Position numbers and translations under genes: made by a program | DNA from: Pseudomonas lijiangensis | Lineage (GTDB): Bacteria; Pseudomonadota; Gammaproteobacteria; Pseudomonadales; Pseudomonadaceae | DNA length: 64,000 nucleotides | NCBI RefSeq assembly: GCF_018968705.1 | Contig: NZ_CP076668.1 | Coordinates: 5,591,001-5,655,000 of the forward strand | Reading direction: 5' to 3' | Notes under the pieces: model-generated | Database searches by the model: none | What the model saw: the letters and a program-made list of their open reading frames with translations, nothing else | What the model was told of the DNA's origin: nothing | Shown: one piece after another, positions 3,239-60,158 of the stretch | How the letters are laid out: every line of letters starts with the position of its first letter | How positions within the stretch are numbered: the stretch's first letter is position 1

Positions 3239-3294
3239 TTCGATTTCTCCCTGCGCTGAATGGGAGCCAGCTTTTATCGTTCTCACACGACAAA

Positions 3295-3373
3295 GGGTGG
3301 CAACTGTGTACAGGGTGAGAAACCGGTGCAGGGACCCGGCCAGACCGAAGTCTGCCCGTACACAGCCGCCATA
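3295..3373 (-). ncRNA. c4-type antisense RNA, module 1
   Basis: On the minus strand GGCGGCTGTGTACGGG and CCCTGTACACAGTTGCCACC form a long closing stem. Inside are a TTCG-capped hairpin (CAGACTTCGGTCTG) and the recognition arm. This matches the c4 antisense RNA fold of phages P1/P7. The loop word TCCCTGC (plus-strand 3328-3334) is complementary to GCAGGGA over the SD of the next gene (3248-3254). The word TTCTCAC (3315-3321) is complementary to GTGAGAA in the leader (3280-3286). The same GTGTGAGAAC word also occurs upstream at 3426-3435. Confidence 0.88.
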
Positions 3374-3430
3374 GAGCGCGCCGAAAGACGACGAACAATT
3401 GACTGCTCATTACCCAAACAAACGGGTTCT

Positions 3431-3607
3431 CACACCCGATCGCTGATTTGTCAGCGAAGGAACGCAGCCTAGTTCCCGGATTTGGCAGGCACAAGCGGGG
3501 TTGGATTGTCAGGGAAGTTTCACGCAGAAGATACGGACGAGTCTTTCGAAATCGTCACATTTCTTGAGCCAAAAACCCTCGTGGGAGGGAGCTTGCTCGC
3601 GACAGGG
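3431..3607. repeat. Direct repeat, copy A: upstream region of c4 module 1
   Basis: This stretch recurs almost base for base at 3951-4125 (offset 520), with only a few substitutions and a two-base difference in an A-run. It lies upstream of c4 module 1 on the minus strand. It includes the inverted repeat TCGCTGATTTGTCAGCGA, which other c4 modules share in degenerate form, and probably holds the promoter. Confidence 0.85.
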
Positions 3608-3744: not shown

Positions 3745-3797
3745 GATGAAACTCCTACACATTCCGGAGCCATCCCTTAACGTTTCCACACGACAAA

Positions 3798-3876
3798 AGG
3801 TGGCAGCTATGAACGGGGTGGAAAACCAGGCTGTAGGCACCCGGCCAGACCGAAGTCTGCCCGCACATAGCCGCCA
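3798..3876 (-). ncRNA. c4-type antisense RNA, module 2
   Basis: Same fold as module 1: GGCGGCTATGTGCGGG pairs with CCCCGTTCATAGCTGCC, with the internal CAGACTTCGGTCTG hairpin. The loop word CCTACA (plus-strand 3832-3837) is complementary to TGTAGG at the leader SD (3754-3759). TTTCCAC is complementary to GTGGAAA (within 3782-3791). Copies of both targets also lie upstream, at about 3928-3935 and 3946-3955. The words differ from those of module 1 although the modules are duplicates, so RNA and targets have changed together. Confidence 0.87.
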
Positions 3877-3950
3877 TAGTGCACTCGCCGATTACATATC
3901 CGGCAAGCAACTTGGTGACGCTTGTGCGCCTACAGAAAAGAACAGGTTTC

Positions 3951-4125
3951 CACACCCGATCGCTGATTTGTCAGCGAAGGAACGCAGCCTAGTTCCCGTA
4001 TTTGGCAGGCACAAGCGGGGCTGGATTGTCAGGGAAGTTTCACGCAGAAGATACGGACGAGTCTTTCGAAATCGTCACATTTCTTGAGCCAAACCCTCAT
4101 GGGAGGGAGCTTGCTCGCGACGGGG
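3951..4125. repeat. Direct repeat, copy B: upstream region of c4 module 2
   Basis: Second copy of 3431-3607. It precedes c4 module 2 on the minus strand and shows that the RNA, its upstream region and the gene were duplicated in tandem. Confidence 0.85.
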
Positions 4126-44319: not shown

Positions 44320-44368
44320 GCGTTTAGCTCTCCATATGGAGCTGCCAACAGATCGCTACTAAACGAAA

Positions 44369-44447
44369 GGGTGGCAGCTGTACGCGAGTTAGTAGACCGG
44401 TGAGCTAAGAACCGGCGCACCCGGAGGTGCCAAGCGCACAGCCGCCA
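44369..44447 (-). ncRNA. c4-type antisense RNA, module 3
   Basis: GGCGGCTGTGCGC pairs with GCGTACAGCTGCC; the inner hairpin is GGCACCTCCGGGTGC. The loop word TTAGCTC (44402-44408) is complementary to GAGCTAA at the SD of the DUF3077 gene (44324-44330). CTACTAA (44389-44395) is complementary to TTAGTAG in the leader (44356-44362). The 10-base word GCTACTAAAC is repeated upstream of the RNA at 44507-44516. Confidence 0.88.
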
Positions 44448-44513
44448 TAACAGGCAGGCATGAGACGCCTGACAGAGTGCGGTTGTGTTACGCCTTAACT
44501 CATTGGGCTACTA

Positions 44514-44540
44514 AACCCGATCACTGATAAGCAGCGACCG
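44514..44540 (-). promoter_or_regulatory. Conserved upstream element of c4 modules
   Basis: On the minus strand TCGCTGCTTATCAGTGATC leads into GGGTTTAGTAGC. The same imperfect inverted repeat followed by CGGGT(T) and the module-specific b-word stands upstream of the RNAs at about 3431, 3951, 52741 and 59950. It may be part of the promoter or of the transcript start. Confidence 0.5.
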
Positions 44541-44673
44541 ACGCAGACTAGAAGCACAAATTGAGAGACGCAAGCGGGCCGGGATTCTCTCGGAAAAGTC
44601 TGTCAAAAGAAAGGGAGCAGACCTGCAAGCTCAGGCCAAAAACATTGCAAAGCATCACAAGGCGGGGTGATTA

Positions 44674-44753
44674 AGGGAGGCAACTGTACGAAGGTTAGTC
44701 GACCGACGAGCTAAGAATCGGCGCCCCCGAAAGTGCCCTGCGCACAGCCACCA
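44674..44753 (-). ncRNA. c4-type antisense RNA, module 4 (no gene of its own)
   Basis: GGTGGCTGTGCGC pairs with CGTACAGTTGCC; the inner arm is GGCACTTTCGGGGGCGCC. No leader or DUF3077 frame follows; instead the upstream region of module 3 begins. It lies 22 bases after the stop of the gene at 44776-45105, so it could be made from that gene's 3' untranslated region. Its loop still carries TTAGCTC, complementary to the module 3 SD word. Confidence 0.75.
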
Positions 44754-44775
44754 TCAAGAAATGGGCTGCGAGAAT

Positions 44776-52468: not shown

Positions 52469-52544
<76 letters not shown>

Positions 52545-52625: not shown

Positions 52626-52827
52626 ACGGGGCCAGTTAACCGCCCACCAACGCTGTAGGACTCTTCTGAACTTCAGCAATCCCCCTAGCAACCGCTTGTA
52701 GATGCCTGACGCCACGACTACCTTCCTGCCTGTCGCCAAAACCAGCGACCGGGTTTAGTCGCCCGAACACGTCAAGCCAACATGCGCCCCTAGCCAGCGC
52801 CGCGTCATCGAGACCGGCGTAATGCTT

Positions 52828-52909
52828 TATGGTAGCTGTGCACGGGGCACCTTCGGGTGCGCCGGGTGCTTGACGTTCCGGTCGACTAACCCGTGCATGG
52901 CCGCCACCT
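52828..52909 (+). ncRNA. c4-type antisense RNA, module 5
   Basis: GGTAGCTGTGCACGGG pairs with CCCGTGCATGGCCGCC; the inner hairpin is GGCACCTTCGGGTGC. Loop word CTTGACGT (52869-52876) is fully complementary to ACGTCAAG (52940-52947), which overlaps the AAGGAG of the next gene. CGACTAA (52883-52889) is complementary to TTAGTCG (52914-52920). Both targets are also present upstream: GTTTAGTCGC at 52753-52762 and ACGTCAAG at 52769-52776. This is the clearest example of the set. Confidence 0.92.
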
Positions 52910-52955
52910 TCGTTTAGTCGCGAAAGTGATGGCTCAACTACGTCAAGGAGTCACC

Positions 52956-53216
52956 ATGATCGAAACCACCCCAACCCCACCCCGCGATATCACCACCAGC
53001 CTGTTCACCGTAAAGCAAGGCGTCAGCGTTGAAGACGCGCTGATACTCGCATCCGAATACCTGACCTGCGCAGCAGCCACCGCTCATGAAACGGCGGATA
53101 ACAGCTCAAAGGAATACCGACCGCTGGCTCGGGCCGTGGTGCATCAGATAGAGGCTGCGTTGGCGTTGGTGGAAGCTTCGGTGGTTGGGTTGGAGAAGAG
53201 GCCGTTGGCGGTGTAA
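52956..53216 (+). CDS. DUF3077 family protein
   Basis: An 86-residue member: DITTSLFTVKQGVSVEDALI, LASEYLTCAAATAHETADNS, then ARAVVHQIEAALALVEASV. The start at 52956 has AAGGAG seven bases upstream; upstream open codons lie in the c4 element. It is the first gene inside the tRNA-Thr island and is controlled, by inference, by c4 module 5. Function unknown. Confidence 0.85.
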   Translation: MIETTPTPPRDITTSLFTVKQGVSVEDALILASEYLTCAAATAHETADNSSKEYRPLARAVVHQIEAALALVEASVVGLEKRPLAV

Positions 53217-58668: not shown

Positions 58669-58730
58669 CAACACACCCGCCAAGCCTAGGTTGACCCAGT
58701 CAGCAAGCTCAAATCGTGCGGGTTTTTTTT
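58669..58730 (+). ncRNA. Candidate AbiF-associated small RNA
   Basis: The roughly 60-base transcript begins at the promoter and ends in eight T residues. ACCCGC (58675-58680) pairs with GCGGGT (58718-58723) as the closing stem. Within it GTTGAC pairs with GTCAGC around a CCA loop and AGC with GCT. It ends 15 bases before the AbiF start codon. Small RNAs upstream of abiF genes are a known motif class. The match is by position and architecture; I could not run a covariance model. Confidence 0.7.
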
Positions 58731-58745
58731 GCCCGGAGAAACTAC

Positions 58746-59735
58746 ATGAGGCCCTTCGATAAGCCGGCCCTCAGCGTAGAACAGCAATTGGAACTGCTAA
58801 AGCAACGAGGCCTGCACGTCGCCAACGATGATCGGGCTATGCGTTTTCTGGAAGTGGTCACGCTGTTTCGCTTGAGCCCCTACATGAGCCCCTTCCAAGG
58901 GCCAGACCCTGAACACAACTTCAAGCCCGGTAGCACTCTGAAAGCAGTCGTCGACATCTACCGCTTCGACGGTTCATTACGACGCATCACCATGGATGCC
59001 ATCGAACGTGTCGAAGTCGCCATACGCGCGACTATGAGCAATCACATGAGCCCCAAGTATGGGCCTGGCTGGATAGCTGATGCGTCCGTCTTTTCCTCGT
59101 CATATTCACACTCGGATCTACTGCGTCCCTTGCGAGATCAACTGAGCAAGGAACGTAACAAACTTGGACGTGAGATAGACCGCATAAAAAAGAGCCGTCA
59201 GGCTGATGGCGTCCAGCAACAGCGGATTGAAAACCGCATGCGCGATAACTATTTTCGATTCTACGGATCGACTTACGCCCATCCTGAGTTACCGCCCGCT
59301 TGGGCTGTTCTGGAAGAGCTCAGCCTTGGAACGGTGTCTACCCTCTTCAATGCCATAGGCAAAAGTGTCGACAAGAAAGCGATCGCTAGCAGATTCAATC
59401 TGCCTTTCGAAGTCCTGGCCTCTTGGCTCCACACCCTTACCTTCATTCGAAACTGCTGTGCCCATCACTCACGACTATGGAACCGAGAGCTCTCGATTCG
59501 TCCCTCCCTCCCCAACGAATGGATCATCCCAAATGCGCATGCTGGTCAGCCTCAACCCAAACAGCGGCTGTACATCGTATTGACGATGCTAGCCTATCTG
59601 ACCGACTTGATCAGTCCAGACAGCCAGTGGAAATTTCGCCTGGCCGAAATCATGGATCAACAGGAATTGGGTTATTTGAGACTGATGGGATTTCCAAATG
59701 ATTGGAAACGCCAGCAGCAATGGTGTTTGGAGTAA
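58746..59735 (+). CDS. Abi_2 family (AbiD/AbiF) HEPN protein
   Basis: A 329-residue protein of the Abi_2 family. It carries two R-x(4-5)-H HEPN-type motifs: IRATMSNH at residues 93-100 and RNCCAHHSRLWN (Arg235, His240), with the family stretch RFDGSLRRITMDAIERVEVA. Abi_2 proteins cause abortive infection and are thought to act as RNases kept silent by an adjoining RNA. The start at 58746 follows CCGGAGAAACTAC; an earlier GTG at 58716 lies inside the RNA hairpin and is unlikely. Confidence 0.88.
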   Translation: MRPFDKPALSVEQQLELLKQRGLHVANDDRAMRFLEVVTLFRLSPYMSPFQGPDPEHNFKPGSTLKAVVDIYRFDGSLRRITMDAIERVEVAIRATMSNHMSPKYGPGWIADASVFSSSYSHSDLLRPLRDQLSKERNKLGREIDRIKKSRQADGVQQQRIENRMRDNYFRFYGSTYAHPELPPAWAVLEELSLGTVSTLFNAIGKSVDKKAIASRFNLPFEVLASWLHTLTFIRNCCAHHSRLWNRELSIRPSLPNEWIIPNAHAGQPQPKQRLYIVLTMLAYLTDLISPDSQWKFRLAEIMDQQELGYLRLMGFPNDWKRQQQWCLE

Positions 59736-60027
59736 GGAAGCCAGAAATAGACCACGATTGCCTTGCTTGATCACTCAAATAAAAAATCGTGGCCTGTCAC
59801 AAATAGAGCAGACCGACTACGACCCTAGGCAAACAAACAGAAACAACCTTCCCTCATAAACCCCATCAAGCTGTAGGACCCTTCTGAACTTTAAGGATAT
59901 CCTCTTGCCCGTCTTGCGCCTCACGTAAACCAAGGCCTAACCTCGCTGCGTCGCTGATCACAGCGATCGGTTTGACAGGCCGTTCAATCGAAGCGCAACA
60001 CCCTCTATCAGCCACGCGGATTGCGTT

Positions 60028-60107
60028 ATGGCGGCTGTTCGTGGGGCACATTCGTGTGCGCCGGGTTCCTTGATTCCTGGTCTGTCAACCCGCGTACAGT
60101 CGCCACC
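60028..60107 (+). ncRNA. c4-type antisense RNA, module 6
   Basis: GGCGGCTGTTCGTGGG pairs with CCCGCGTACAGTCGCC; the inner hairpin is GGCACATTCGTGTGC. Loop word TCCTTGATT (60067-60075) is complementary to AATCAGGGA (60142-60150) over the SD, with one G-U pair. CTGTCAA (60082-60088) is complementary to TTGACAG (60115-60121), which also occurs upstream at 59972-59978. The flank at 59870 (GCTGTAGGACCCTTCTGAAC) resembles that of module 5 at 52651. Confidence 0.9.
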
Positions 60108-60158
60108 ATTCTGATTGACAGCAGAAGGTGTCGGCTCAACCAATCAGGGAGATTCGAC

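Follow-up and report, generated by a model that had tools for sequence, protein, structure and literature searches.

The start of icd is the direct target of the c4 antisense RNA of phage P1. RNase P cuts this RNA from a precursor, and the RNA covers the ribosome-binding site on the transcript toward ant (PMC5320573, PMC8198154). Acinetobacter baumannii resembles the organism studied here in having many chromosomal copies of such RNAs. One strain has 21 similar Group 1 C4-like small RNAs, 15 of them full-length; these RNAs are expressed, and all except two seem to be processed at a GG site (PMC5320573). Their targets are not identified in that account, whereas here each C4 RNA tested matches its neighbour gene.

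The second relevant system is the IsrK-orf45-anrP locus of the Salmonella prophage Gifsy-1. As described in PMC4825925, the long transcript is untranslated, a stable species of ~80 nt is processed from the read-through transcript, and a terminator stands behind the leader. The authors propose alternative folds of isrK-orf45, compare IsrK with P4 seqA, and treat the stretch that we read as C4 as part of orf45 (PMC4825925). The main text of that paper makes no mention of phage P1, Citron or Weinberg. The CI immunity RNA of satellite phage P4 likewise is an antisense RNA that has a target copy on either side within one transcript, but it is reported to terminate transcription (PMC4825925), and its likeness to the modules below is taken from that description. 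In a 2025 review, IsrK and c4 have an entry each (PMC12197685). The Rfam C4 and isrK profiles have already been found to detect CI and seqA relatives (PMC10111431), so the kinship of C4, isrK, CI and seqA is known and not a new result.

Here we describe C4 modules in a 64,000-nucleotide stretch of Pseudomonas lijiangensis DNA (contig NZ_CP076668.1, positions 5,591,001 to 5,655,000), called the window. A library search, with subscription papers and supplements outside its scope, found no published description of chromosomal C4 targets for Pseudomonas.

C4 modules of the window

The original prediction read six loci of the window as C4 folds with the logic of P1 c4. All six exceed the gathering score of the Rfam covariance model RF01695, at 57.6–81.2 bits (Table 1); P1 itself scores 68.8 bits. 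As in P1, junction and loop words face targets over the leader and start region behind the C4 RNA, a second target copy lies upstream, and the RNA has ATGG and CCACC ends. Fold, layout and word pairing are thus alike, and the regulation itself would follow by analogy. Different from P1 are the many chromosomal copies, each with its own words, and the gene behind, which belongs to DUF6124, Bro-N or another small family and is not the icd-ant of the P1 and P7 operon. P1 Icd affects cell division, and AnrP of Gifsy-1 affects prophage induction.

Table 1. Features of the C4 modules, in window coordinates
Feature	Position	Strand	Basis
Module 1 leader (c4-a1b1)	3419..3472	-	RF03163 40.6 bits, E 2.7e-8, below gathering score
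Module 1 C4 RNA	3293..3376	-	RF01695 73.6 bits; words TCCCTGC/GCAGGGA, TTCTCAC/GTGAGAA
Module 1 DUF6124 gene, 68 codons	3032..3238	-	PF19619 43.7 bits
Module 2 leader (c4-a1b1)	3939..3992	-	RF03163 38.4 bits, E 1.2e-7, below gathering score
Module 2 C4 RNA	3796..3881	-	RF01695 72 bits
Module 2 target frame, broken, 9 codons	3715..3744	-	
Module 3 leader (c4-a1b1)	44500..44551	-	RF03163 42.7 bits, E 5e-8, below gathering score
Module 3 C4 RNA	44367..44452	-	RF01695 73.1 bits
Module 3 DUF6124 gene, 107 codons	43996..44319	-	PF19619 56.9 bits
Module 4 C4 RNA, without target gene of its own	44673..44758	-	RF01695 57.6 bits
Module 5 promoter-like site TTGTAG-17-TACCTT	52696..52724	+	Consensus match alone
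Module 5 leader (c4-a1b1), upstream target words	52718..52776	+	RF03163 match (52718-52769, 25.3 bits, E 0.0093; gathering score 46.7 not reached) and words
Module 5 C4 antisense RNA	52825..52911	+	RF01695 73.6 bits, gathering score 45
Module 5 loop word CTTGACGT	52869..52876	+	Word match
Module 5 junction word CGACTAA	52883..52889	+	Word match
Module 5 downstream junction target TTAGTCG	52914..52920	+	Word match
Module 5 loop target ACGTCAAG into Shine-Dalgarno AAGGAG	52940..52950	+	Sequence, word match
Module 5 DUF6124 gene, 86 codons	52956..53216	+	PF19619 36.1 bits, cut-off 27
Module 6 leader (c4-a1b1)	59937..59986	+	RF03163 31.7 bits, E 1.1e-4, below gathering score
Module 6 C4 RNA	60024..60110	+	RF01695 81.2 bits
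Module 6 target frame, cut short, 32 codons	60159..60257	+	

Five of the six C4 RNAs have a matching target region of their own, module 4 being the exception; it shares the loop word TTAGCTC with module 3. In these five modules the loop word, carried by the second hairpin, complements the Shine-Dalgarno region, and the junction word complements a leader word ~20–30 nt upstream of the Shine-Dalgarno target. For module 5, the proposed complementarity of the two C4 words to a site overlapping AAGGAG and to TTAGTCG in the leader is borne out by the coordinates: the complement of CTTGACGT occupies 52940–52947, reaching into AAGGAG, with the ATG at 52956. The module 5 observation, a C4 RNA with paired words, is confirmed as real. 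The different words proposed at 3.3, 3.8, 44.4 and 60.0 kb are each present at their own target; the loop pair at 60.0 kb (module 6) includes one G-U and is hence absent from the Watson-Crick word list.

The window modules also carry a further set of target words ahead of C4, which the original prediction did not include. The junction target recurs upstream of C4 in modules 1, 2, 3, 5 and 6, where it is the loop sequence of a small hairpin, as folding shows for modules 1, 2 and 5 and inspection for 3 and 6. In module 5 the upstream junction target TTAGTCG lies in the hairpin loop at 52755–52761, followed by an upstream loop target ACGTCAAG at 52769–52776. A leader with two target words upstream of C4 is also the layout of the c4-a1b1 motif (RF03163), already published as a table entry (Weinberg 2010, PMC2864571). 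RF03163 matches upstream of the same five modules with E values from 2.7e-8 to 0.0093, but all five window leaders score below its gathering score. The isrK model RF01394 matches modules 1 and 2 at 27.6 and 28.7 bits, short of its gathering score of 50.

The target family had been named as DUF3077, an assignment that does not hold for the window. With Pfam cut-offs of 27 bits for DUF6124 (PF19619) and 21 bits for DUF3077 (PF11275), the genes of modules 1, 3 and 5 are all DUF6124. DUF3077 reaches 19.7 bits in module 5 and is not listed for modules 1 and 3. A true DUF3077 gene does stand behind C4 in another genome (L054, 108.9 bits). The DUF6124 structure model, built for module 5, is a plain helical hairpin (mean pLDDT 84) with 277 PDB matches, all weaker than E 0.001. 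Five proteins tried against NCBIfam had no match, and a literature search returned no paper on DUF6124. For DUF3077, the literature consulted describes a Pseudomonas putida pseudogene that is mutated in evolved strains.

Two neighbours of the modules were recorded. A tRNA gene (52469–52541) ends ~180 bases before the module 5 leader. The stretch 58676–59735 holds a 339-codon frame that matches Abi_2 strongly (152.6 bits), together with an abiF-like RNA over its start (34.2 bits; the gathering score is 37). This is likely an abortive-infection unit, ~200 bases upstream of the module 6 leader.

Private pairing of C4 words and targets

Our computations establish the C4 fold, a private, two-sided pairing of two words, co-change across paralogs and species, and a fixed position before DUF6124 and Bro-N genes. 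The swap test sets the duplex energy of the C4 words on their own targets against the energies on all swapped targets, over 20,000 shuffles. The test used 25 of the 30 C4 loci of the P. lijiangensis genome; L005, L026, L027, L028 and L030 were dropped for having no gene at the expected place (L026 retains the junction target). The loop word pairs with its own Shine-Dalgarno window at a mean of -12.35 kcal/mol (swapped, -6.88) and the junction word with its own leader at -7.59 kcal/mol (swapped, -4.12), values reached by 0 of 20,000 shuffles in both cases. The first C4 hairpin served as control, and its value was reached by 18,597 of the 20,000. The leader words upstream of C4 match their own C4 words in the own-genome swap tests too.

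The test was repeated on 72 further loci in three sets. The genus set has 30 loci, one per genome, all near the top of the ranking, not a random draw. The order set has 29, among which L062, L075 and L089 come from the genus itself. The third set, Orth13, consists of the 13 C4 matches in the 20 loci L091–L110 (L111–L119 lay outside the scan). In each set 0 of 20,000 shuffles reached the own-target value, and the controls were not significant. The original prediction had also claimed that seed and target change together. This is upheld in four sets and 97 loci, with pairing to the own target far above pairing to swapped targets; the analysis used no tree, so the loci cannot be counted as independent events.

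The 7-nt junction word finds its match upstream as well as downstream in 24/25 own, 29/30 genus, 25/29 order and 11/13 Orth13 loci. No loop word occurs twice among the 25 own modules, which have 12 different junction words between them. The own target is strictly the best in 14 of the 25 own loci by loop alone and in 21 by loop and junction together; cross-talk between modules is therefore possible.

The CCACC end of a C4 RNA is tRNA-like. The ATGG and CCACC motifs occur in 22/25 and 23/25 own loci, in 30/30 and 30/30 genus loci and in 21/29 and 14/29 order loci, respectively. The GG cutting site of C4-like RNAs is described in PMC5320573.

The module 5 gene has 12 relatives in named genomes, of which those of Pseudomonas capsici and P. 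cichorii are the closest; not all of the 12 are necessarily orthologs. C4 precedes the gene in 11 of the 12. The exception, L133, has no C4 passing the threshold and keeps leader and gene, possibly a natural target without its antisense RNA. The 12 loci with C4, window included, have the junction word CGACTAA (five loci) or CTGTCAA (seven), with a matching junction target both upstream and downstream in 12/12. Loop and Shine-Dalgarno region form at least six Watson-Crick pairs in 10/12 of them, with four in L128 and five in L130. This homolog set overlaps Orth13 (L095 = L129, L092 = L130). A tRNA of equal score also precedes the gene in L124 and L126, so these two and module 5 may be true orthologs.

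Leader RNA and mode of action

Judged by sequence, the modules are predicted C4 switches of a known kind, real and well supported, in an unusual setting of many chromosomal copies, the majority with words private to the gene beside them. We consider it highly probable that each module is a C4-type switch, off by default, on a single transcript. The order would be promoter, leader with target-word copies, C4, target words over leader and Shine-Dalgarno, and gene. Excision of C4 from its precursor would probably be the work of RNase P, the enzyme that does so in P1. Its junction and loop words would then pair with the start region of the gene, such that ribosomes could not load. Having its own words, each module could work beside many others with limited cross-talk. 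The leader copy would probably set the amount of free C4, and leader RNA supplied in trans should lift the repression in the manner of its homolog IsrK. Transcription, processing, repression and leader relief are thus predicted by analogy with P1 and Gifsy-1. A sigma-70-like site precedes the leader in 20/25 own-genome modules (mononucleotide shuffles: mean 5.4, maximum 10).

Gifsy-1 shows the same order of leader RNA, C4 and gene with a matching start region. The Rfam C4 model finds a C4 of 69 bits 25 nt behind IsrK. The junction word of this C4 complements both IsrK and the start region of the gene that follows, whose Shine-Dalgarno is complementary to the loop word. The published compensatory mutants sit in these pairing words. 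IsrK G28A and G31A and the opposite C162U and C159U act as partners (PMC4825925); the C4 junction word contains positions 159 and 162, and the upstream target word positions 28 and 31 (pairs G28-C162 and G31-C159). Twelve base identities given in PMC4825925 fit this numbering at zero shift, and the next best shift fits 6/12. The Gifsy-1 mutant data are a direct test of the pairing.

The same data bear on what the leader does. In Gifsy-1 the form with leader and C4 paired in cis is reported to be silent, and double mutants restoring the pairing lowered expression (PMC4825925). A leader that is merely a decoy would not account for this. When the precursor is folded to minimum energy, junction word and leader pair in 12/25 own, 7/30 genus and 17/29 order loci, and in neither P1 nor Gifsy-1; the energies of such long RNAs are too rough for a verdict on leader capture in cis. 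As the on-state, such capture is opposed by the Gifsy-1 mutants, which point the other way.

C4 might instead act as P4 CI does, binding the leader copy and the downstream copy and terminating transcription rather than blocking ribosomes. The upstream copy fits the seqA-CI-seqC layout described in PMC4825925, and the profile matches of PMC10111431 link C4 and isrK to CI and seqA. A hairpin with a T-run lies between leader and C4 in 16/30 genus and 19/29 order loci (shuffles 1.9 and 2.2), and also in P1. In the own genome, by contrast, the terminator scan scores 6/25 modules (shuffles 1.1), of which 4 were judged convincing and module 5 is not one; the matches at L001 and L014 are the leader hairpin itself. 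No clear intrinsic terminator was found between leader and C4 in module 5, a difference from Gifsy-1 as its authors describe it, nor a convincing one in any window module, and the same scan found 0/13 in the loci near module-5-like genes. Far upstream it scored 3/25, 0/30, 3/29 and 0/13 loci (own, genus, order, Orth13), and behind C4 none in any of the four sets. IsrK in trans also raised an anrP transcription fusion 8-fold, against 139-fold for translation (PMC4825925), and the Shine-Dalgarno lies under the loop word in P1 and Gifsy-1 as well as in the own genome. We therefore regard termination as rather unlikely and prefer the block of ribosome loading. Given the hairpin and T-run in many genus and order loci, the leader there could be a separate RNA, like IsrK. 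In the window modules it is probably part of a long precursor.

Distribution and meaning

With 150 of 1,420 candidates scored, the P. lijiangensis genome has 30 C4 loci: 16 before DUF6124 genes, 6 before Bro-N genes, 3 before broken or cut-short frames and 5 without a gene. The last two groups count against the switch model, as does the weaker CCACC end of the order set. Bro-N genes are thus C4 targets as well, beyond the family named in the original prediction. Seen from the genes, the genome has 17 DUF6124 matches, 16 of them following a C4 at 70–198 bases, and 7 Bro-N matches, 6 of them at 116–135 bases; one of each lacks C4. Modules are duplicated in tandem in places (e.g. L004 with L022, L007 with L018). 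L027 is a near copy of the L006 leader and C4, with an identical loop word and no target behind.

C4 was found in 110 of the 119 Pseudomonas genomes drawn (109 over the cut-off), with a median of 13 per genome; 73 genomes have at least 10 and 17 at least 33. The order sample has a C4 match in 29/194 genomes, mostly one or two each, counted up to 21 per genome. Other genes behind C4 in the examples scanned encode DUF3077, Bro-N, AntA, Rha, KilA-N and small proteins without a family. Related-looking frames of 52–57 codons follow C4 in L031–L034, L045, L048, L049, L051, L052, L056 and L059; one of these was scanned in full (from L032) and has no Pfam match. Several distant C4 loci precede antirepressor-type phage genes. 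The small target families look like an expansion within Pseudomonas.

DUF6124- or DUF3077-like genes adjoin the PrrF RNA without a C4 match in 8 of 20 loci examined (L100, L101, L103, L105, L106, L108, L109, L110), so the gene family can exist without a C4 switch. In the viral collection, one contig ends in a complete C4-DUF6124 module (L123:2769-3171) that is near-identical to a P. abietaniphila locus (L134) and may be host DNA flanking a prophage.

The C4 copies could also be leftover phage immunity, silencing matching genes of incoming phages or elements with the adjacent genes as passengers. C4 was first found in phages, some distant C4 RNAs stand before AntA, Rha, KilA-N or Bro-N genes, and orphan copies exist. 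Weiss and co-workers gave this as one option for Acinetobacter, control of bacterial transcripts being held potentially more likely. We judge it highly unlikely here: the tested C4 RNAs each retain, through divergence, words private to their own neighbour gene. In the viral collection, one DUF6124 query, which reaches close relatives only, found a single locus, itself a C4-DUF6124 module, and this is weak evidence of absence. That target stretches were simply copied within each module, without regulation, is extremely improbable even with tandemly duplicated modules in places, since the C4 and target words are complements and not copies, 25 modules match with 25 different loop words, the other C4 hairpin has no match, and the C4 fold is kept.

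The default-off C4 switch thus remains our reading, and the ~30 chromosomal copies suggest that a phage immunity switch may have multiplied into separate chromosomal switches. A wider version, plausible but on balance doubtful, is that dozens of mutually insulated switches, each made of a leader decoy, an antisense C4 and a target start site and derived from a phage immunity region, silence non-phage genes, with the leader, where it is terminated, as activator of its own module alone.

If IsrK-orf45 is read as a leader plus C4, the published mutant data would be opened to the C4 field. Chromosomal C4 RNAs are numerous in Acinetobacter, where targets are not identified in PMC5320573; here the target would be readable as the next gene, through two private words. 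With the target readable from sequence, the question could be tested at once in laboratory Pseudomonas. The modules form a natural collection of candidate RNA repressor-target pairs, diverged yet matched, that may inform how insulated antisense pairs evolve.
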